Positions 41,511 through 52,124 of a stretch of DNA of 64,000 bases are shown piece after piece. Under the pieces are notes generated by a model that did no database searches, was not told where the DNA came from, and worked only from the letters and a program-made list of their open reading frames with translations. This DNA comes from Alcaligenes faecalis (GTDB taxonomy: Bacteria > Pseudomonadota > Gammaproteobacteria > Burkholderiales > Burkholderiaceae_B): contig NZ_CP031012.1 of assembly GCF_009497775.1 (NCBI RefSeq), positions 2,542,001 to 2,606,000 on the forward strand. The letters are read 5' to 3'. A program made the position numbers and the translations under genes. Positions within the stretch are counted from its first letter, which is position 1; every line of letters starts with the position of its first letter.

Positions 41511-41524
41511 TTGATTTGACTCAA
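41511..41524 (+). promoter_or_regulatory. FNR box upstream of fnr
   Basis: TTGATTTGACTCAA matches the FNR consensus TTGAT-N4-ATCAA with one mismatch. Its centre (41517.5) is 41.5 bases before the A of the fnr ATG. A CATTAT at 41548-41553 can serve as -10. This is class II activator geometry if transcription starts at the ATG. Confidence 0.8.
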
Positions 41525-41558
41525 AGATTTAGCGTTTCGCCATCTGACATTATTCCTT

Positions 41559-42287
41559 ATGCAAAAACGTATCTCGGTTACCGCTGACTCCATACGCTGC
41601 TCCAGCTGTATGCTCAATGAGGTGTGTCTACCTCTTGGGATGCCTAAGCATGAAATGGAGCGGTTGGACGAATTAGTCAAGGAGCGCATCCGCATCCCCA
41701 AGGGCGGCGTGCTGTTTCGACTGGCCGACTCAGTCGAGGGAATCTATGGTCTGCGCTCTGGTTCGATCAAGATGCAGCTGGAAGATTCCACCGGCCACAT
41801 CCAGATTACGGGCTTTTTATTACCAGGAGAAATCCTGGGCATGGATAGCCTGGTTGAAAATCGCCATGTCTCCCATGCCATCGCCCTGGAAGACAGCGAA
41901 GTCTGTGTGATCCGCCTCGATGATCTGGACCGCCTGTCGGCCCAGTTGCCTATCTTGCAGCAACAGTTCCGTCGCCTGATGAGCAAGGAAATCAACCGTG
42001 CGCATCAACTGATGATGACCCTGGCCGGACTGCGTTCCGAACAGCGCCTGGCTGCCTTCTTGCTGAACCTGTCCCAGCGCCTGTCGCTGCTTGGCTACTC
42101 CCCTTACGAATTCATTCTACGCATGAGCCGCGAAGAAATCGGCAACTTCCTGGGCCTGACGCTGGAAACCGTCAGCCGCCTGTTCTCGCGTTTTGCGCGC
42201 GAAGGTCTGCTGAAAATCTCCCAGCGCGAAGTCCACTTGCTGGACCTGGCCGCCCTGCGCACGCTGGCAGGCACGGAGTGCGACTAA
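41559..42287 (+). CDS. fnr: Oxygen-responsive regulator Fnr (CRP/FNR family, 4Fe-4S)
   Basis: Senses oxygen through a labile 4Fe-4S cluster and controls anaerobic genes, here most directly the cco genes next to it. The 242-residue protein has the N-terminal CSSCMLNEVC cluster (Cys14 is a further candidate; Cys17 and Cys23 follow) and a fourth Cys in DSEVCVIR. A cyclic-nucleotide-type beta barrel, a dimerisation helix, and the HTH with EIGNFLGLTLETVSRLFSRF complete it. The recognition-helix pattern E..SR is that of FNR, so it should bind TTGAT sites. No Shine-Dalgarno sequence precedes the ATG; see the finding on leaderless transcripts. Ends at a terminator shared with the convergent cco operon. 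Confidence 0.95.
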   Translation: MQKRISVTADSIRCSSCMLNEVCLPLGMPKHEMERLDELVKERIRIPKGGVLFRLADSVEGIYGLRSGSIKMQLEDSTGHIQITGFLLPGEILGMDSLVENRHVSHAIALEDSEVCVIRLDDLDRLSAQLPILQQQFRRLMSKEINRAHQLMMTLAGLRSEQRLAAFLLNLSQRLSLLGYSPYEFILRMSREEIGNFLGLTLETVSRLFSRFAREGLLKISQREVHLLDLAALRTLAGTECD

Positions 42288-42971: not shown

Positions 42972-44471
42972 TTACTGAGGAATATAAAAACTACTGCGTT
43001 CGTTCACGTAGGTCTTGCGGCCCCCTTCATGCTCGCCTACTGCCTGGATGGAAATACCATACAGGCCTGGCTTGGCACTACTAATTGGGACTTGCACCAC
43101 GACCGGCAACAATCTATTGCCAGCAGGTGCCACATGAATGTGATCCTGGCCGTTCTCGGTCAAATGAATGCGTGCGCCTTCCAGACCAGTGACGGACAAC
43201 TGCAGCTCCATCGCCTCTTCCGAGGTATTGATGACTTGCAGGCGGAACACGTTTTCAATCATGCCGCCGGGCACTTCACGGCCCAACGCGCCACGGTCGC
43301 GGATCACGTCCACACGCATCGGTGTCCGGGTTGCCAAGGTATAGACGAAGGCACCACAAATGACAGCCAGAATCAGGATATAAGACAGCACGCGCGGGCG
43401 CAGCATGCGACGTCGCACCTGCGGCTGCGTCATGCGCTCTTTAATGGCACGTTCCGAGGTGTAGCGGATCAGGCCCTTTTCGTAGCCCATCTTGTCCATG
43501 ACCTGATCACAGACGTCCACACAGGCACCACAGCCAATACACATGTATTGCAGGCCATCACGAATATCAATGCCGGTCGGACAGACTTGAACACAGAGGC
43601 TGCAGTCCACACAATCGCCCATGCCGGCTTCTTTATGGTCAATCTTGCGAGATCGACCGCCTCGGGTTTCACCACGCACGAAGTCGTAGGTAACCACAAA
43701 GGTATCGCTGTCCACCATGGCACTTTGGAAACGCGCGTAGGGGCACATGTACTTACAGACGGCTTCGCGCATGAAACCTGCGTTACCCCAGGTGGCAAAG
43801 GCGTAGAACAAGAGCCAGAACCACTGCCAGGGGCCCAGGGACAAGGCGATCAGTTCACCACCCAGTTCACGGATAGGCGCGAAGTAGCCGATAAAGGTAA
43901 AGCCGGTCCACAAGGCAATCACAATCCACAGGAAGTGCTTGGTTGCCTTGAGACGTAATTTGCGGGCGTTCCAGGCCTGTTCATCCAGGCGGATACGCGC
44001 CAGACGGTCACCTTCCACCTTGCGCTCGACCCACATGAAGATCTCGGTGTAGACCGTCTGCGGACAGGCATAACCACAGAACAAGCGGCCGGCCATGGCG
44101 GTGAAAAGGAATAAGGAGAAGGCAGATATAAGCAGCAGCACCGTCAGGTAGATAACGTCCTGGGGCCACAGAATCATGCCAAAGATGTAGAACTTGCGTT
44201 CCAGCAGGTCAAACAGCACTGCCTGACGGCCGTGCCATTCCAGCCATGGCAGACCATAGAAAATGATCTGCGTGAAATACACCATCCAGATCCGCCAGCG
44301 GGCGAATACGCCCTTGACGGATCGTGGATAGATTTTGCTGCGCACATCGACCAGCGCCTTCTCGACTTGCGGAGAGGTTCCACCCGCTCCCTTGGTGTTA
44401 CGTGGAGGTTGCCACTTGGGCACAGTTCCCTGCGCGGTATCAGCGCTCGGTTGGGAAGAATCACTACTCAT
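42972..44471 (-). CDS. ccoG: Cytochrome c oxidase accessory protein CcoG (FixG)
   Basis: A membrane iron-sulfur protein needed for cbb3 oxidase assembly, proposed to reduce copper. The 499-residue protein has an N-terminal membrane part with GRLFCGYACPQTVYTEIFMW and REAVCKYMCPYARFQ, two 4Fe-4S ferredoxin motifs (CVDCSLCVQVCPTGID, CIGCGACVDVCD), and a C-terminal Ig-like periplasmic domain (about 390-499). It follows ccoP by 37 bases. Confidence 0.95.
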   Translation of the reverse strand: MSSDSSQPSADTAQGTVPKWQPPRNTKGAGGTSPQVEKALVDVRSKIYPRSVKGVFARWRIWMVYFTQIIFYGLPWLEWHGRQAVLFDLLERKFYIFGMILWPQDVIYLTVLLLISAFSLFLFTAMAGRLFCGYACPQTVYTEIFMWVERKVEGDRLARIRLDEQAWNARKLRLKATKHFLWIVIALWTGFTFIGYFAPIRELGGELIALSLGPWQWFWLLFYAFATWGNAGFMREAVCKYMCPYARFQSAMVDSDTFVVTYDFVRGETRGGRSRKIDHKEAGMGDCVDCSLCVQVCPTGIDIRDGLQYMCIGCGACVDVCDQVMDKMGYEKGLIRYTSERAIKERMTQPQVRRRMLRPRVLSYILILAVICGAFVYTLATRTPMRVDVIRDRGALGREVPGGMIENVFRLQVINTSEEAMELQLSVTGLEGARIHLTENGQDHIHVAPAGNRLLPVVVQVPISSAKPGLYGISIQAVGEHEGGRKTYVNERSSFYIPQ

Positions 44472-44508: not shown

Positions 44509-45426
44509 TTAGTTAGCCTGGGCAGGCTCGGCATTATTCGACAAGCCCCAGACCCAACCAGCCAGCAAACGAATCTGCTCAGGAGTCAGAGTGGCTTTCT
44601 GAGCCGGCATCTGGTTGGTACGACCCTGCAGGACGGTCTGAACGATGGTGGCTTCGGAGCTGCCATACAGCCAGTAATCGTCAGTCAGGTCAGGAGCGCC
44701 CAACAGCGTGTTGCCCTTGGCATCCGCACCGTGACAGGCAAAACATGCGCTGTCATAGACACGTTTACCAGCAACCAGACGCAGAGGATCTGCAGCCAGG
44801 CCGGACAAGGAACGCACATACTGAGCCACATCGGAGGCTTGAGCGGGGGTGAATTGCGCTTGTGGCGGCATCATCCCGGTACGGCCTTCGGTAATGGTGT
44901 GCAGAATCTGCTCGGGCTCGCCACCCCACAACCAGGCTTTGTTGGCCAGGTTAGGGAAGCTGGGAGCACCTTGTGCATCGGAGCCGTGACACTGGGCGCA
45001 GTTGTTCAGGAACAAACGCTGACCAATTTCGCGGGCTTCCTGATCGCGAGCGATCTCTTCGATAGGCATTTCGCGGTAACGGGCGTACACAGGCTCCAGG
45101 CGAGCATTGATCTCGGCCTGTTGCTGCTTGACCTGTTGGCCGGAGCTAAAGCCCAGCGTGCCCTTGAAGTTGCCCAGGCCGGGGTACAGCACCAGATAAC
45201 CCAAGGCAAACACACACAAACCGATGTACATCACGGTCCACCAGCGTGGCACGGGTGTATTCAGTTCGGTCAGGTCACCGTCCCAAACGTGGCCGGTTTC
45301 TTCTACGTCGACGGTCTTGCCCAGAAATGCGCGCTGGGTAAAGAGCAGCCACAAGCAAAACACGATGCCCAGCAAGGCGATACCGGAGATCCAGAGGCTC
45401 CAGCCATTATTAAAAAAGTCACTCAT
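44509..45426 (-). CDS. ccoP: cbb3-type cytochrome oxidase subunit CcoP (diheme)
   Basis: Passes electrons from the bc1 complex or soluble cytochromes to CcoO/CcoN. The 305-residue protein has two N-terminal hydrophobic segments (about 9-28 and 59-80) and two cytochrome c domains with CAQCH and CFACH. Possible Met ligands are in TGMMPPQA and TNQMPAQK. The start ATGA overlaps the ccoQ stop. Confidence 0.97.
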   Translation of the reverse strand: MSDFFNNGWSLWISGIALLGIVFCLWLLFTQRAFLGKTVDVEETGHVWDGDLTELNTPVPRWWTVMYIGLCVFALGYLVLYPGLGNFKGTLGFSSGQQVKQQQAEINARLEPVYARYREMPIEEIARDQEAREIGQRLFLNNCAQCHGSDAQGAPSFPNLANKAWLWGGEPEQILHTITEGRTGMMPPQAQFTPAQASDVAQYVRSLSGLAADPLRLVAGKRVYDSACFACHGADAKGNTLLGAPDLTDDYWLYGSSEATIVQTVLQGRTNQMPAQKATLTPEQIRLLAGWVWGLSNNAEPAQAN

Positions 45427-45596
45427 TCGGAACCCCCAGGGTTTTTATCGTTACTTCCCTCGTCGGGCAAGGCGAAAGGCAGAAGCGCTGCTTCTTCGTT
45501 GGCCTGGCGGCGTCCTCGAGAGAACGCCCACCAGCAAATGCCAAGGAAGGTAGCCATCGCCAAAGCGGTCACAACAGCGTTGATGATGGCTAACAT
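45423..45596 (-). CDS. ccoQ: cbb3-type cytochrome oxidase subunit CcoQ
   Basis: A 57-residue one-helix subunit: MLAIINAVVTALAMATF leads into the membrane segment ending GICWWAFSRGRR, followed by an acidic tail ending NPGGSE. It begins directly after the ccoO stop (TAA, then ATG) and its TGA overlaps the ccoP start, so its identity is fixed by position as well. Stabilises the association of CcoP with the complex in known systems. Confidence 0.9.
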   Translation of the reverse strand: MLAIINAVVTALAMATFLGICWWAFSRGRRQANEEAALLPFALPDEGSNDKNPGGSE

Positions 45597-46256
45597 TTAG
45601 TGGCTCCCCTGCTCCACAGCCTTGGCGGCTGCGTCGCGACTGGCTACGCCCAGACCTTGCAGATAAGCAACCACCGCGTCTTCTTCGGTCTTGCCTACCA
45701 GCTCCTGAGGAGCAGCATCAATTTGTTCCTGCGTGTAAGGCACACCCAAGGTACGCAGGACATTCATGCGGTCCTGAATGTTTTCGCCTTCCACCGAGTT
45801 TTTCTGCAGCCATGGGTAGGCAGGCATATTGGACTCTTTGACCACGTTACGTGGGTTGCGCAAGTGAATGCGGTGCCATTCGTCGCTGTAGCGCTGACCC
45901 ACACGAGCCAGGTCAGGACCGGTACGCTTGGAACCCCACAGGAAGGGGTGGTCGTACACGGACTCACCCGCCAGCGAGTAAGGACCGTAGCGCTGCACTT
46001 CGGACTGCAGCATACGAATTTGCTGCGAGTGACAGCCCACACACCCTTCACGGATGTAGATATCGCGACCCATCAGCCTTAACGGCTCGTAAGGCTGAAT
46101 GCCTTCGGTAGGCTGGGTGGTCGAGTGTTGAAAGAACAAAGGTACGATCTGCACCAGGCCAGCGAAGGAAATCACCAAGATACTCAGGATGATCAGCAGC
46201 CCGGTGTTTTTCTCGATCGTGGCGTGCGAAAAGCGCTTGTTAGTGTCATTAGCCAT
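45597..46256 (-). CDS. ccoO: cbb3-type cytochrome oxidase subunit CcoO (monoheme)
   Basis: A membrane-anchored cytochrome c subunit of 219 residues with one N-terminal helix (about 18-42) and [13 protein letters not shown] as heme c site. [32 protein letters not shown] is the CcoO signature. The Met ligand is probably in [10 protein letters not shown]. It follows ccoN by 10 bases. Confidence 0.97.
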
Positions 46257-46266
46257 GATTTACTCC

Positions 46267-47754
46267 TTAGGCCAGCAAAGTGGTTGGACCAACCAGCGCT
46301 GGGTCGCGGGCATCCGGGTTTTTCAGGGGCACAACAGGGTTGATACCTTTCTGACCTGCACGAACGGTCAGGAACACGTTCCAGGACATCAGCAAGATAC
46401 CGGCCACAAAGAAGGCGCCGCCCAAAGCACGGATTGCGTAGAAGGGGTAAGTAGCCTTCACGACTTCCACAAAGCTGTACGTCAAGGTGCCATCAACACC
46501 GGTAGCACGCCACATCAGACCTTGCATCACACCGGCAATCCACATTGCGGCGATATACAGCACCACGCCCAGGGTAGCCAGCCAGAAGTGCAGGTCGATC
46601 AGACGAGGACGAGCCATTTCAGTACGGCCGTACAGACGGGGGATCAGGTAGTACAGGGAACCGAAGGTAATCATGGCAACCCAGCCCAGCGCACCGGAGT
46701 GCACGTGACCAATGGTCCAGTCGGTGTAGTGCGACAGCGCGTTCACCGTACGGATAGCCATCATGGAGCCTTCAAAGGTGGACATACCGTAGAAGGACAG
46801 AGCCACAACCATGAACTTCAGGATCGCGTCAGTACGCAGCTTGTGCCAGGCACCCGACAAGGTCATGATGCCGTTGATCATGCCGCCCCAGGAGGGAGCC
46901 AGCAAAATCAGGGAGAAAGTCATGCCCAGAGACTGGGTCCAGTCTGGCAAGGAGGTGTACAGCAAGTGGTGAGGACCTGCCCACATGTACGTAAAGCCCA
47001 GGGCCCAGAAGTGGACGATGGACAAGCGGTAGGAGTAGATGGGACGGTTGGCCTGTTTGGGGATGAAGTAGTACATCATGCCCAGGAAGGACGTGGTCAG
47101 GAAAAAGCCCACGGCGTTATGGCCGTACCACCACTGCACCATGGCGTCCTGCACACCGGCGTAGGCCGAGTAGGACTTCATGAAGCTGACTGGCAGTTCC
47201 AGGTTGTTGAAAATGTGCAGTACAGCGATGGTGACGATGTAGGAGCCAAAGAACCAGTTGGCCACATAAATGTGACGTACACGGCGCTTGACGATCGTGC
47301 CAAAGAACACAATGGCGTAAGCCACCCAGACCAGCGTGATCAGGATGTCAATGGGCCATTCCAGTTCGGCGTACTCTTTGGAGCTGGTGTAACCCATAGG
47401 CAGGGTAATGACCGCAGCCACCAGCACAGCTTGCCAGCCCCAGAAAGTGAAGGCTGCCAGCTTGTCGCAGAACAAACGGGCCTGACAGGTACGCTGCACG
47501 ACATAGTAGGATGTCGCGAACAAGCCGGTGCCACCAAAGGCAAAAATCACAGCGTTCGTATGCAGTGGACGCAGACGTCCAAAACTAAGCCACGGTGTGT
47601 CGAAATTGAGTTCTGGCCAAATCAACTGCAAGGCAATAAAAAGGCCTATTGCCATGCCGATGACGCCCCAAAATACGGTCATGATGGCGAACTGCCTCAC
47701 AATCCCGTAATTGAAGACTTCGGCGTTATTTCCGACTGCATCGGAAGTGCCCAT
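46267..47754 (-). CDS. ccoN: cbb3-type cytochrome oxidase catalytic subunit CcoN
   Basis: The heme-copper catalytic subunit of the high-affinity oxygen reductase. At 495 residues it has about 12 membrane helices. Conserved histidines are in [14 protein letters not shown] (low-spin heme ligand), [13 protein letters not shown] (copper ligand and cross-linked Tyr), GPHHLLYT (copper ligands) and [12 protein letters not shown] (heme ligands). It is the first gene of ccoNOQPG-H-orf. The 5' leader of about 40 bases is preceded by a perfect FNR box. Confidence 0.98.
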
Positions 47755-47801
47755 TTGCTTCCCCTAAACAAACATTGTTAATACAAGCGACAACAAGCTA
47801 C

Positions 47802-47843
47802 ATCATCCAGCAAGTCGGTAATCCGCTACTTGATGCTTATCAA
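47802..47843 (-). promoter_or_regulatory. FNR-dependent promoter of the ccoNOQP operon
   Basis: A perfect FNR box, TTGATGCTTATCAA on the plus strand (47830-47843), is centred at 47836.5. On the minus strand GATGAT (47802-47807) sits exactly where the -10 belongs if the box is at -41.5, giving a start near 47795, 41 bases before the ATG. Confidence 0.85.
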
Positions 47844-47850
47844 AAAACTT

Positions 47851-47879
47851 CGGAAAGCACGCGCTCGCGCGTGTTTCCG
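47851..47879 (-). terminator. Terminator between ccoS and ccoN
   Basis: CGGAAA-CACGCG pairs with CGCGTG-TTTCCG (12 bp with one bulged G). On the minus strand it is followed by AAGTTTTTTG. It should separate ccoI-ccoS transcription from the ccoN promoter. Confidence 0.75.
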
Positions 47880-47937
47880 CCCCGCAGACTGTGTGTCGCC
47901 GACCATTTGCAGGGCTAAAAAACAAAATTGGCAGGTA

Positions 47938-48123
47938 TCAGGAATCGGGTGGACGCTCTGCTCCCGACAGACCCGCGGTGGAGTCGTCGTCCAGCAAGAT
48001 GGAATCAGCCGCATTGCCCGTATCTTCAAACTGACCGGCAAAAATTGCCCACCAGAAAGAGATACCGATGACAATGACCAGAAAAATGGAGATGGGGATC
48101 AGGACCAGCAAAGAGCCAAACAT
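47938..48123 (-). CDS. ccoS: cbb3 oxidase assembly protein CcoS
   Basis: A 61-residue membrane protein starting MFGSLLVLIPISIFLVIVIG. One helix is followed by WWAIFAGQFEDTGNAADSILLDD, the CcoS signature. Required for cofactor insertion in cbb3 oxidase in known systems. The ATG at 48121-48123 is two bases after the stop of the CcoI-like gene, so the two are coupled. An upstream start at 48171 lies inside that gene and is rejected. Confidence 0.92.
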   Translation of the reverse strand: MFGSLLVLIPISIFLVIVIGISFWWAIFAGQFEDTGNAADSILLDDDSTAGLSGAERPPDS

Positions 48124-48124
48124 A

Positions 48125-49093
48125 TCAGCCCTGCCTTGCTGCTGGACCGGTCCACTGGGCCGGCACCTCACGGGTGCGGCTGCGATAGATGCGCCAGGAG
48201 TTGGCCGCTACGGCCAAAGAGGACACCAGCATGCTGACGGCTGCCAGCCAGGGGGCCACAATGCCCAAGGCTGCCAGGGGAGTCATGAGCAAATGCCAGA
48301 CAATCGAACCGTACAGGTTCTGACGGGCGATGCGGCCGGTTTGCTGGGTCAGTTGTACAACTTCAAATTCATTCTTGGCAGGTCGGGCCAGCAAGCCGGC
48401 ATGCGCTGAAGCGACGGCTGAAGGAACCGACATGGACATGGCACAGGGACAGCTCATGACCAGCATGGCGACCACAACGGGCACGACATGCGAAGGGTCC
48501 ATCCAGTACCAGACCAGACCAAAGGCAGCGGCCAGTACCAGCTGAATGCTGACAAACCAGAATGCCAGGGTATTGGCATGACCCGTCACGGACTGGCGAA
48601 AACGTTCGATCAGGTCATGGGATGCAGACTGCGTTACCGACTGGCGTGCACAGAGCTCCAGATAACGGGCGGTCAGCAAAAAGGCCACGAACATCGTGAC
48701 CGAGTCGTAGTACACCTCGCCCTGCTGGGTCCAGGTGTTATAGACGCTGGGCAGGAAGGCGCCAACAATGCCCAGGGCCACCGGCACATCCATGCCGACA
48801 CGGCCTTCGGACAAGCTTTTGACCGCGCCTTTCAAGATGGGCCAGGCACAGTACAGCACGACTGGCATGGTCAGGCACAGGCCCGCCCAGTTCATGAGCA
48901 CAATGACTTGCGAGAGGGATTCAATATCTTCAGCGCGGGTGCTGAAGGAGCGCATATAGCCGGGGAAAGCAAACATCATCACCTGCATGGCAGCCAGCCA
49001 GGACAGGCCCAAACGGGCTAGTGTGTGTCGTCGACGCGACCGCTGCTCATCGGTGAGGGGCTTTGGAAGAGAAAAAATCGAATATGCGCGCAT
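48125..49093 (-). CDS. CcoI-like P1B ATPase membrane core lacking the ATPase domains
   Basis: A 322-residue protein with eight predicted membrane helices of a copper P-type ATPase. Four come before residue 150 (around 28-47, 62-84, 103-118, 131-147), two near 175-196 and 203-223 with the metal motif CPC at 215-217 (VMSCPCAMSMSVPSAVASA), and two at about 263-300. Between helices 4 and 5 there are only about 30 residues where the actuator domain (TGE) should be. Between helices 6 and 7 there are about 40 where the P and N domains (DKTGT, GDGxND) should be. There is also no N-terminal metal-binding domain. It cannot hydrolyse ATP as it stands. It is placed where ccoI normally is, before ccoS. 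The ATG at 49093 has no ribosome site; a GTG 18 bases upstream would add six residues. Confidence 0.8.
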   Translation of the reverse strand: MRAYSIFSLPKPLTDEQRSRRRHTLARLGLSWLAAMQVMMFAFPGYMRSFSTRAEDIESLSQVIVLMNWAGLCLTMPVVLYCAWPILKGAVKSLSEGRVGMDVPVALGIVGAFLPSVYNTWTQQGEVYYDSVTMFVAFLLTARYLELCARQSVTQSASHDLIERFRQSVTGHANTLAFWFVSIQLVLAAAFGLVWYWMDPSHVVPVVVAMLVMSCPCAMSMSVPSAVASAHAGLLARPAKNEFEVVQLTQQTGRIARQNLYGSIVWHLLMTPLAALGIVAPWLAAVSMLVSSLAVAANSWRIYRSRTREVPAQWTGPAARQG

Positions 49094-49099
49094 GGAAGG

Positions 49100-49141
49100 A
49101 CTATAAGCCACTGATATTTCTTCATTCTTGATTTAAATCAA
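49100..49141. promoter_or_regulatory. Perfect symmetric FNR box with divergent promoters
   Basis: TTGATTTAAATCAA (49128-49141) is a fully palindromic FNR site. Its centre (49134.5) is 41.5 bases from the ATG at 49093 on the minus strand and 41.5 bases from an ATG at 49176 on the plus strand. On the minus side TATAGT (49100-49105) is exactly at -12 to -7. On the plus side a weaker TATCGT (49163-49168) is near the right place. Confidence 0.8.
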
Positions 49142-49175
49142 TACGACTTTGCTTCGATCCTATATCGTTGTCCTT

Positions 49176-49217
49176 ATGCATCTTGTTCAGGCCGTTACCC
49201 CCCCAACGCGGCGCTAA
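49176..49217 (+). CDS. 13-codon leaderless micro-ORF (candidate)
   Basis: ATG at 49176 opens MHLVQAVTPPTRR and stops at TAA 49215-49217, 16 bases before the terminator stem. The ATG is exactly 41.5 bases from the centre of the FNR box, so an FNR-activated transcript would begin with it. The ten bases around it (TCCTTATGCA) are the same as those at the fnr start. Such a short frame can arise by chance; the position is what makes it notable. Confidence 0.35.
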   Translation: MHLVQAVTPPTRR

Positions 49218-49232
49218 CTGTTCAATGCTTTC

Positions 49233-49260
49233 AAGGCTGCTTATTGGCAGCCTTTTTTTT
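49233..49260 (+). terminator. Intrinsic terminator of the small transcript
   Basis: AAGGCTGC pairs with GCAGCCTT around TTATTG, followed by a run of Ts through 49260. Its only plausible user on the plus strand is the short transcript described at 49176. Confidence 0.9.
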
Positions 49261-49533
49261 ATTCCCATCCGCAAGGCAGGACAACGATTTTGCACTGGCT
49301 ATTCGTCCCTTGCGCGGCCAAAGTCTACCACGCCTTTTCCCTATGAGAATGCCTTGATTATCAAGACTTTTCATGACGAAATAAGGTCGCTCTGTGAATG
49401 CAAATCAATTCACGAAAACTTGAACCCTGAATTTAAAAACAGGCGTGTCTTGCTACCCGCTTTGCAAGCCTTTTCGGGCCTGTTTTCCGCCTTTCTTTTC
49501 TGTGCTTACCAAGCCTGTTCAAAACCGTTTTCA

Positions 49534-49565
49534 TCAAATATCAAGTCTTTAAATTTGATATTTGA
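49534..49565. repeat. Perfect 11-bp AT-rich inverted repeat in the ccoI-aceA gap
   Basis: TCAAATATCAA (49534-49544) and TTGATATTTGA (49555-49565) face each other across 10 bases. No T-run follows. The rest of the 569-base gap (49112-49680) contains the FNR region, the small transcript and the aceA terminator. A 137-codon open frame across it is not convincing. Confidence 0.6.
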
Positions 49566-49601
49566 AATATGTAGCTTTTAAGCAAAAACCAGCGCCCAAA
49601 T

Positions 49602-49639
49602 AAAAAGCAGCCCACCGACTGGAGCGTACGGTGGGCTGC
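49602..49639 (-). terminator. Intrinsic terminator after aceA
   Basis: GCAGCCCACCG pairs perfectly with CGGTGGGCTGC (11 bp). On the minus strand it is followed by TTTTTATTT. It lies about 40 bases after the aceA stop. Confidence 0.95.
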
Positions 49640-49680
49640 CTGCAACCAGAGAAGGGGCTATCTACCCTTCCCTGTCCTGC

Positions 49681-50988
49681 TTATGCCTCGGAGGGCGCGA
49701 ACTGCTCGGCTTCGGTGGAGCCGGCCAGTGCGGTCGTCGAGGACTTACCGGCTTCAACTGTCTGCGTGACAGCGTCAAAGTAGCCTGTACCCACTTCGCG
49801 CTGGTGTTTCACAGCGGTAAAGCCCAGTGGTGCAGCGGCGAACTCTTTTTCCTGCAGTTGAACAAAGGCGCTCATCTGGTTGCGGGCGTAGCCGTGGGCC
49901 AGTTCGAACATGCCGTAGTTCAGTGCGTGGAAACCAGCCAGGGTGATGAACTGGAACTTGTAGCCCATGGCACCGAGCTCGCGCTGGAACTTGGCAATGG
50001 TGGCGTCGTCCAGGTTCTTCTTCCAGTTGAACGATGGCGAGCAGTTGTAGGACAGCAGCTTGCCAGGGAACTGACGGTGGATGGCTTCCGCAAAGCGGCG
50101 AGCGTATTCCAGATCCGGAGTGGAAGTTTCGCACCAGACCAGGTCGGCGTAAGGAGCATAGGCCAGACCACGGGCAATGGCTTGATCCAGACCGGCACGG
50201 GTACGGTAGAAACCTTCAACCGTACGCTCGTCCAGAATGAAGGGGCGATCGTACTCGTCCACATCGCTGGTGATCAGGTCTGCTGCGTCCGCATCGGTAC
50301 GGGCAACCAGAATCGTGGGAACGTCCAGAACGTCGGCAGCCAGACGAGCAGCCACCAGCTTGGAGATGGCTTCACGAGTGGGTACCAGCACTTTGCCACC
50401 CAAGTGACCACATTTCTTGGCCGAAGCCAGCTGGTCCTCGAAGTGAACGCCTGCAGCGCCCGCCACAATCATGGCTTTCATCAGTTCAAATGCGTTCAGC
50501 ACACCACCGAAACCGGCTTCTGCGTCGGCCACGATAGGAGCGAAGTAATCCACGTAGCCTTCGTCGCCCGGATTCACCCCTTCCATCCACTGGATCTGAT
50601 CACAGCGGGCCAGGGAGTTGTTGATGCGACGCACCACGGATGGCACCGAGTTAACGGGGTACAGCGATTGGTCAGGGTACATTTCGCCAGCGCTGTTGGC
50701 GTCGCCAGCCACTTGCCAACCCGACAGGTAAATCGCTTTCAAACCGGCCTTGACCTGTTGCATGGCCTGGTTACCCGTCAAGGCACCCAGTGCATTCACA
50801 AAGGGTTCCTGATTGATGGACTGCCACAGACGCTCAGCGCCACGGCGAGCCAGAGTGTGCTCCTCGACCAGAGAACCACGCAAACGAATCACTTCCTCAG
50901 CGGTGTAACCACGCTTGATACCTTGCCAGCGTGGATCTTCTGCCCAGCGTTTTTGCAAATTGCGGATCTCAGTTTCTCGAGCATTCAT
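49681..50988 (-). CDS. aceA: Isocitrate lyase
   Basis: Splits isocitrate into succinate and glyoxylate, the first glyoxylate-shunt enzyme. The 435-residue protein has the catalytic KKCGH at 191-195, [43 protein letters not shown] and [10 protein letters not shown]. The C terminus [19 protein letters not shown] and a short variable tail match the E. coli-type enzyme (434). The start [15 protein letters not shown] is preceded by AGGAGT. Monocistronic by context; no malate synthase gene is adjacent. Confidence 0.97.
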
Positions 50989-51296
50989 GATGGACTCCTA
51001 AGATGGATTTAACAGTGAACAAGATGACTACAGTCTACCCAAATGCTGCACCGCAACCATGTTTTCTATCTTATATAAGAGTAATTATTTTTTTGTTTAA
51101 AATCATATAGATGAATAATTAATTTCGAGATATGAAACGACTTACCTGTTTGTGAAATGAAAAACTGTGCGGCGCGACAGCCGTTTTTTGCATACTGAGA
51201 CAAGGATTTCACAATGTGGGATAATCGCCTTTATACCGCCCGGTGAGCGCCTGCTCGCTGCACCGGTTTCCTGTTTTATTTCTGCAGTACCCGCCA
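50989..51296. promoter_or_regulatory. Divergent aceA-queF control region
   Basis: A 308-base AT-rich gap. A CTTATATAAG palindrome at 51070-51079 lies on the aceA side. On the queF side GAGACA (51197-51202) and GATAAT (51220-51225), 17 bases apart, are promoter candidates. No regulator site of a known family is recognised. Confidence 0.4.
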
Positions 51297-52124
51297 ATGA
51301 GCAACACCTCCCCTCTTAAAGACTCGCCTCTTGGACATGATGTGGTTTATCCCACACAGTACGATCCCAGTGTCCTGTTTGGCATTGAACGCTCCCTGAA
51401 CCGCCAGACGCTTCAGGTTCCCGAACAATGGCATGGCGCCGATATCTGGAACGGTTACGAGATCTCCTGGCTCAATCCCAAAGGCAAGCCCGTCGTCGCC
51501 CTGGCACGCTTTGTCATTCCCTGGAATAGCCCACGCATCATCGAGTCCAAGTCCTTCAAGCTGTATCTGAACTCGTTCAATGATGAAGTGATAGAAGACA
51601 TGGCCAGCCTTGTACAGCGCATGGAGCAAGACTTGAGCGCTGTTGCCGGTGCCGCCGTTAATGTGACGCTAATTCCGCTTGGCGCCTTGAACGGTCAGCC
51701 GATCAGCCAGCTGGAAGGCCACTGCATTGATGAGCTGGACATCAGCATTCAGGACTACACGCCACAAAGCGGCTTGCTGCAATGCCTGCCAGACGCCCCC
51801 ATCGTGACCGAGTCCCTGGTCTCTGATTTGCTCAAGTCCAATTGCCCCGTCACCGGCCAACCCGATTGGGGCAGCGTGCAAGTGCGTTATACCGGCCCGC
51901 AGATTGACCCGGCTTCCTTGCTGCGCTATATCGTTTCGCTGCGCCGTCACACCGAGTTCCATGAACATTGTGTGGAACGTCTCTACAGCGATATTCAGCA
52001 AAGTTGCCAACCAGAGCGTTTGCTGGTGTACGCGCGTTATACCCGCCGTGGCGGCCTGGATATCAACCCCTGGCGCAGCAGCCATGCGGATAGCGTAGAA
52101 GAACCTCGACTGGCTCGTCAGTGA
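51297..52124 (+). CDS. queF: NADPH-dependent 7-cyano-7-deazaguanine reductase (long QueF)
   Basis: Reduces preQ0 to preQ1 in queuosine synthesis. The 275-residue protein is of the long, two-domain type. The N-terminal half has LFGIERSLNR and the QueF motif ESKSFKLYLNSFND. The C-terminal half has the catalytic Cys in SNCPVTGQPDWGSVQV and ends with RYTRRGGLDINPWRSS. The start at 51297 (MSNTSPLKDSPLGHDVVYP) fits the family; an upstream start at 51243 adds non-conserved residues. Followed by two small hairpins and a strong terminator. Confidence 0.95.
   Translation: MSNTSPLKDSPLGHDVVYPTQYDPSVLFGIERSLNRQTLQVPEQWHGADIWNGYEISWLNPKGKPVVALARFVIPWNSPRIIESKSFKLYLNSFNDEVIEDMASLVQRMEQDLSAVAGAAVNVTLIPLGALNGQPISQLEGHCIDELDISIQDYTPQSGLLQCLPDAPIVTESLVSDLLKSNCPVTGQPDWGSVQVRYTGPQIDPASLLRYIVSLRRHTEFHEHCVERLYSDIQQSCQPERLLVYARYTRRGGLDINPWRSSHADSVEEPRLARQ

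Follow-up and report, generated by a model that had tools for sequence, protein, structure and literature searches.

RESULTS

A perfect FNR box lies midway between two divergent ATG codons

Can a single activator site set the start of transcription, and with it the start codon, on both of its sides? The question is raised by a 64,000-nt stretch of Alcaligenes faecalis DNA (the window), in which an FNR box lies between two divergent ATG codons. The sites concerned are as follows.

49128 to 49141 (centre 49134.5), no strand: palindromic FNR box TTGATTTAAATCAA, 0 mismatches to the consensus
49100 to 49105, minus strand: TATAGT, the -10 element of the ccoI promoter (-12 to -7), from the sequence and from a box-centred profile of relatives
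47830 to 47843, no strand: second perfect FNR box, TTGATGCTTATCAA, 82.5 nt before ccoN; used as a control promoter with a leader

A preliminary description of this DNA placed one palindromic box 41.5 nt from both ATGs. This proved exact when we read the sequence: the minus-strand ATG at 49093 and the plus-strand ATG at 49176 are each 41.5 nt from the box centre at 49134.5. The description was also right that TATAGT occupies exactly -12 to -7 on the minus side (49105-49100, if 49093 is +1), and we agree with it that no Shine-Dalgarno sequence precedes either 49093 or 49176. A perfect FNR box is found at the same place in the nine genus genomes in which the assembly covers it (the contigs of G006 end there).

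Perfect TTGATnnnnATCAA sites occur at six places in the whole 4.16-Mb genome, and a reversed-pattern control occurs at one. Two of the six are in the cco cluster. Sites with at most one mismatch number 4 in the window versus 1.72 expected. That count alone is unremarkable; what is remarkable is the perfect palindrome and its position. Scanning 47700-49700 for the sigma-70 consensus gave no promoter, as expected of an activator-dependent promoter that lacks a -35 element.

The minus-strand gene encodes the membrane part of a CcoI-type ATPase

The minus-strand ATG opens a cbb3-oxidase cluster. Its main genes, and an fnr-like gene at the far end, are listed here.

48125 to 49093, minus strand: mini-CcoI gene, 322 aa, only the membrane part of a CcoI-type copper P-type ATPase; its ATG at 49093 is the predicted transcript start
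47938 to 48171, minus strand: ccoS
46267 to 47754, minus strand: ccoN
45597 to 46256, minus strand: ccoO
44509 to 45426, minus strand: ccoP
42972 to 44471, minus strand: ccoG
41559 to 42287, plus strand: fnr-like gene, 242 aa, with Cys-x2-Cys-x5-Cys and an ETVSR recognition helix

Mini-ccoI comes first in the cluster, followed by ccoS, ccoN, ccoO, ccoP, ccoG, and a FixH-like ORF. Residues 16-172, 173-237, and 247-311 of mini-CcoI match three membrane blocks of an 811-aa CcoI (locus L188), and the CPC motif is retained. Mini-CcoI thus resembles the CcoI/FixI copper P-type ATPases in these three blocks, CPC included, and in adjoining ccoS and ccoN. It differs from them in that the L188 segments before and between these blocks, with the N-terminal, actuator, and DKTG parts, have no counterpart. 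The catalytic DKTG motif is present in full-length L188 and absent from the 322-aa protein, which in this respect departs from a CcoI P-type ATPase. Mini-CcoI is not a decaying fragment, because a frame of 312 to 412 aa is unbroken in 41 of 61 family genomes. Each genus genome also has two other full-length P-type ATPases, 32 to 35% identical to L188.

The product of the fnr-like gene is probably the activator at the box. It scored 227 bits against the NCBIfam Fnr subfamily, just below the cut-off of 228, and we take its Cys spacing and ETVSR helix to be of the FNR type. At least four further CRP/FNR-family matches were found in this genome (G000), 24 to 27% identical among the matches listed and all far weaker; these further family members might use such a box as well.

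The fnr-like gene has a box of its own. This site, TTGATTTGACTCAA, has one mismatch and lies exactly 41.5 nt before the ATG, with no Shine-Dalgarno sequence (window 41511-41559). The distance is 41.5 nt in 8 of 10 genus genomes and 40.5 nt in G005, and the box is absent in G006. Among 30 loci, one other genus has it at 43.5 nt and the other 19 have none at that distance. Because this spacing is not family-wide, we claim no general rule for leaderless FNR targets.

Box, -10 element, and distance are conserved upstream of ccoI

The preliminary description had proposed comparing box-to-ATG spacing in related genomes. We did so for 51 mini-CcoI loci (L079-L129), several of which are metagenome assemblies. 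They were taken from 79 loci, themselves from the best 80 of 384 relatives among the matches listed. A box was accepted with at most one mismatch, and a site near 42 nt was preferred only between sites with equal mismatches; no such tie occurred among the loci listed. The ATG of each relative was picked by script, so that their AUG start is partly by construction.

An accepted box lies 41.5 to 45.5 nt before the mini-ccoI ATG in 44 of the 51 Alcaligenaceae-type loci. The spacing is 41.5 nt in 17 loci, 42.5 in 14, 43.5 in 4, 44.5 in 6, and 45.5 in 3, and the 44 loci comprise 43 distinct sequences and include 14 named genera: Candidimonas, Paenalcaligenes, Pollutimonas, Yanghanlia, Parapusillimonas, Neopusillimonas, Achromobacter, Pusillimonas, Castellaniella, Allopusillimonas, Zwartia, Sheuella, Bordetella, and Advenella. 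In locus L113, the box is 69.5 nt from the ATG that was used and 42.5 nt from an in-frame ATG 27 nt upstream. L081, L103, L107, L108, L119, and L128 have no acceptable box at the expected distance. Loci without a box include Pelistega (two), Taylorella, and Oligella; some lineages therefore seem to have dropped this layout or exchanged it for another.

A second, overlapping family set gave similar results, with the box within the same range in 32 of 41 ccoI loci. Nine had no box at that spacing, one of them owing to a contig end. Here the best-fitting in-frame ATG was chosen, which in 2 of the 32 (L053 and L060) is 3 or 6 nt from the expected start. In neither set was an accepted box closer than 41.5 nt to the ccoI ATG.

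We aligned 45 promoters on the box (the 44 with an accepted box plus L107). T is present at -12 in 38, A at -11 in 36, and T at -7 in 38. Between the box and the -10 element, the commonest base at any position is shared by at most 28 of the 45, and the 22-nt spacer has 28% mean pairwise identity versus 98% for the half-sites. Therefore, what is kept is the box, the -10 element, and the distance, while the intervening sequence drifts. The base before the ATG is C in all 14 loci with 42.5 spacing, and at these loci, polymerase may well start on the A of the ATG as well.

The minus side thus has a consensus site and a -10 element placed as for a site at -41.5, as a class II FNR promoter should. 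Of 23 activated E. coli promoters with a known start, 19 have the FNR site within 4 nt of -41.5, as described in PMC3688515. Because E. coli sites scatter in this way, our argument rests on the position of the -10 element and on the 41.5-nt floor. The conservation indicates that the ccoI layout is held by selection in most Alcaligenaceae-type loci examined.

The ccoI mRNA is predicted to be leaderless

The gene begins with AUG at 49093 and no Shine-Dalgarno sequence, as expected of a leaderless mRNA. From the box spacing, the predicted leader is 0 nt here and 0 to 4 nt in 44 of the 51 relatives. We scored Shine-Dalgarno pairing as the energy with the 16S tail, with a threshold of -5 kcal/mol or lower. 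Such pairing was found for 3 of 51 ccoI genes, 50 of 51 ccoN genes, and 41 of 45 ccoO genes. The three ccoI loci are L088, L097, and L127, the last with GGAGG directly before the ATG (-9.5 kcal/mol). Shuffled ccoI upstream stretches (44 loci) reach -5 in 23% of trials, and therefore ccoI is if anything depleted of this pairing. At the control gene ccoN in the same 51 loci, a box lies 65.5 to 87.5 nt from the ATG in 36; three others have it at 188.5 to 213.5 nt, one at 30.5 nt (with a doubtful start), and 11 have none.

We also considered a longer ccoI frame. An in-frame GTG lies at 49111, upstream of the minus-strand ATG. It is upstream of TATAGT and hence outside the predicted transcript. Among the relatives, 41 of 51 have an in-frame stop 6 to 48 nt before the ATG. 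An upstream extension was therefore rejected.

Alternatively, the promoter might be FNR dependent while ccoI is translated mainly from a longer transcript, made by read-through from aceA or from another promoter, so that the start near the ATG is minor. The aceA gene is upstream on the same strand, and FNR start positions can shift by a few bases, as described in PMC3688515. We consider this quite unlikely, given the rarity of Shine-Dalgarno pairing before the ccoI ATG, a terminator-like site after aceA (49621-49608), and the lack of any accepted box nearer than 41.5 nt. The leaderless minus transcript is, as a prediction from sequence, well supported, and the case for a leaderless, FNR-positioned ccoI, first made at one locus, now extends to many genera.

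The predicted plus-strand transcript looks like a small RNA

The following features are on the plus side of the box.

49163 to 49168, plus strand: TATCGT (TATTGT in G006), probable divergent -10 element, deduced
49175 to 49260, plus strand: predicted small RNA, about 83 nt, start at 49175 or 49176; from fold, conservation, and terminator
49191 to 49195 with 49208 to 49212, plus strand: stem of the small RNA, with a C-rich loop at 49196-49207
49233 to 49260, plus strand: intrinsic terminator, 9-pair stem and 8 T
49176 to 49217, plus strand: 13-codon ORF, TAA at 49215-49217; rejected as a gene

Two leaderless mRNAs had been predicted in the preliminary description. The minus-side part is supported, its spacing being kept in relatives. 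The plus-side part looks only half right: a divergent transcript is likely, but the ORF is not kept and the fold and terminator are. The prediction as a whole is therefore partly supported by comparison of genomes.

The 13-codon ORF is intact in 8 of 10 genus genomes. In G005, its ATG is ACG, and in G006, it has no stop in register, so that it lacks the conserved start codon and frame of a leaderless mRNA. We read the plus transcript as a small RNA because conservation across the genus lies in the fold and terminator and not in the ORF. A TTG-started ORF at 49168-49581 (plus strand) was also rejected; it has no Pfam match and runs through the terminator.

A case for a leaderless mRNA encoding a 13-residue peptide, alongside that of ccoI, could be made from the two ATGs lying exactly at 41.5 nt and from the ORF being kept by those eight genomes. 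We judge it very improbable. The fold, C-run, and terminator persist, whereas G005 has the ACG codon and G006 misses the stop, and the ORF covers the hairpin stem and C-rich loop. Furthermore, gonococcal FnrS, which also starts with AUG, was inactive as a leaderless translational fusion, as described in PMC3032703. Very probably, then, the plus product is not a leaderless 13-codon mRNA.

Several observations bear on the small RNA itself. A sequence of 89 nt beginning at 49173 has a folding energy of -26.6 kcal/mol (z -3.12), and 2 of 200 shuffles were as good. Structures were compared in nine genus sequences (G004 was omitted, being 100% identical to G000 here). Eighteen of the 22 predicted pairs are invariant. 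Of the other four, one survives one-sided changes in three sequences, another survives a two-sided change in a single sequence, and two are broken, in one sequence each. The fold therefore rests mainly on conservation among close relatives, since only one pair in 22 is compensatory. At the level of sequence, this predicted short unit, with its intrinsic terminator and conserved structure, fits the class of trans-acting small RNAs. The RNA carries ACCCCCCCA in its 12-nt loop.

We searched 268 family genomes with an RNA model, using strict filters that lose weak matches, and 52 genomes had a match at an E value of 0.1 or lower. The RNA was found in 10 of 10 genus genomes (best match at 8.6e-18 or lower), several of which also have weak second matches. 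The 42 genomes outside the genus had weak matches, the best at 1.9e-4 over 45 bases. When the model was compared with 83 sources, only the window fell below an E value of 0.3. Rfam holds an FnrS family, and a covariance-model search of 47500-51300 matched no Rfam family at E values up to 5, in which the region differs from E. coli FnrS.

Could the symmetry be chance and the RNA spurious? An ATG at a given position is expected about once in 64 (reckoned with equal bases). Against this, identity to G000 in seven other genus genomes is 0.91 to 0.99 in every 20-nt bin of 49080-49259 and drops to 0.64, 0.55, and 0.59 over the three bins that follow the terminator; these figures are pulled down by the poor alignment of G005 in this part and by the scoring of gaps as mismatches. 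Identity rises again near the end of aceA, and it is 0.79 to 0.90 in the ccoI coding bins before 49080. With such a conserved block, we find chance scarcely credible. A divergent, FNR-linked plus transcript is likely, and it looks like an FNR-controlled small RNA.

We searched for targets among 13 window genes (whose labels are partly our own), and no duplex stood out from shuffles. By eye, the ccoP ribosome site CTGGGGGTT (45431-45439) could form a 6-base pairing with the C-rich loop, which was not significant in the shuffle comparison (0.245). UC-rich stretches of the meningococcal NmsR small RNAs pair with ribosome sites, as described in PMC5362039. An inverted repeat, TCAAATATCAAG..TTTGATATTTGA, lies at 49534-49565 between aceA and the small RNA and is kept in several genus genomes.

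The plus-side promoter may be a mirror image of the ccoI promoter

The plus-strand hexamer at exactly -12 to -7 is ATCGTT, and a better one, TATCGT, is one base upstream. Therefore, the plus +1 is placed at 49175 or 49176. TATCGT has 4 of 6 consensus bases and is one base off the ideal position. Another candidate, TATATC at 49161-49166, would give a box distance of 38.5.

Besides the window, we inspected 45 relatives with the box. None has a divergent terminator within about 300 nt of it (within 146 nt in L129). Therefore, the small RNA seems to have been added, at the level of the genus, to a ccoI promoter that was already there. The mirror hexamer of L107 and L126 matches 4 of 6 consensus bases, equal to that of the window.

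It might be that the box activates ccoI only and that the small RNA has its own promoter, constitutive or differently regulated. The plus -10 element is weak and off by one, and those 45 relatives have the box without a divergent terminator, both of which fit such a promoter. Nevertheless, conservation in the genus extends as one block over the box, the promoter spacer, and the small RNA, and the predicted plus start is within a base of the class II position. Hence, we regard a separate promoter as somewhat unlikely, and we favor the box serving both sides.

DISCUSSION

We propose that FNR acts at this box as a class II activator. For ccoI, FNR at -41.5 would recruit RNA polymerase to TATAGT, and the first base transcribed would be the A of the start codon, so that the mini-CcoI mRNA at the head of the cbb3-oxidase cluster would be leaderless. 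On the plus side, this genus would have gained a mirror -10 element through which the box also serves a divergent promoter. The transcript from that promoter would start at or within a base of 49176 and end about 83 nt later at the intrinsic terminator. We infer FNR binding, the start sites, and a base-pairing function of the RNA, as well as, from the geometry only, activation of both sides by one FNR dimer. The account as a whole, an FNR-positioned leaderless ccoI and a genus-level divergent small RNA from one box, seems to us likely to be correct. More tentative, and a little short of an even chance, is the proposal that one FNR operator acts from the class II position on two divergent promoters separated by 83 nt, making a leaderless mRNA for a motor-less CcoI in much of the family and, through the mirror -10 element, a new oxygen-regulated small RNA of the genus.

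Parts of this arrangement have precedents. Gonococcal FnrS begins with AUG, its promoter matches the FNR consensus perfectly at -41.5, and the inactivity of its leaderless translational fusion led the authors to call it a small RNA, as described in PMC3032703. The present RNA is like Neisseria FnrS/AniS in the box at -41.5, the AUG start, the 5' hairpin, and the intrinsic terminator; the Neisseria RNA is 108 nt (PMC3032703). The likeness is one of described features, and the Neisseria RNA is near bfr genes, whereas the present one shares its box with ccoI. E. coli FnrS is also a small RNA under FNR class II control, with its site at -41.5 (as described in PMC3032703). A difference from E. coli class II FNR promoters is that here the start codon itself is at the predicted +1 to +5.

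In the betaproteobacterium Cupriavidus metallidurans, leaderless is defined as a leader under 5 nt and accounts for 4.67% of primary starts, as described in PMC7563307. The predicted ccoI leader is likewise under 5 nt. However, ccoI is not among the leaderless genes named in the passages considered, and the present link between leaderlessness and one activator site recurs in many genera. Among the literature matches listed, judged by title and start of abstract (most subscription journals being outside the coverage), none dealt with a leaderless ccoI or with the present RNA.

If this account is true, an activator site defines the translation start in many genera, with the operator-to-ATG distance held while the spacer drifts. 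It would add a predicted FNR-linked small RNA, for which promoter mirroring is a clear possible origin, and it would caution that annotation can be misled by an AUG at +1. If one operator does serve both promoters, FNR dimers would choose which polymerase to recruit, coupling oxidase assembly to the small RNA. The ccoI loci would also be a natural set in which to test by what means, and for what reason, leaderless translation persists under oxygen limitation.
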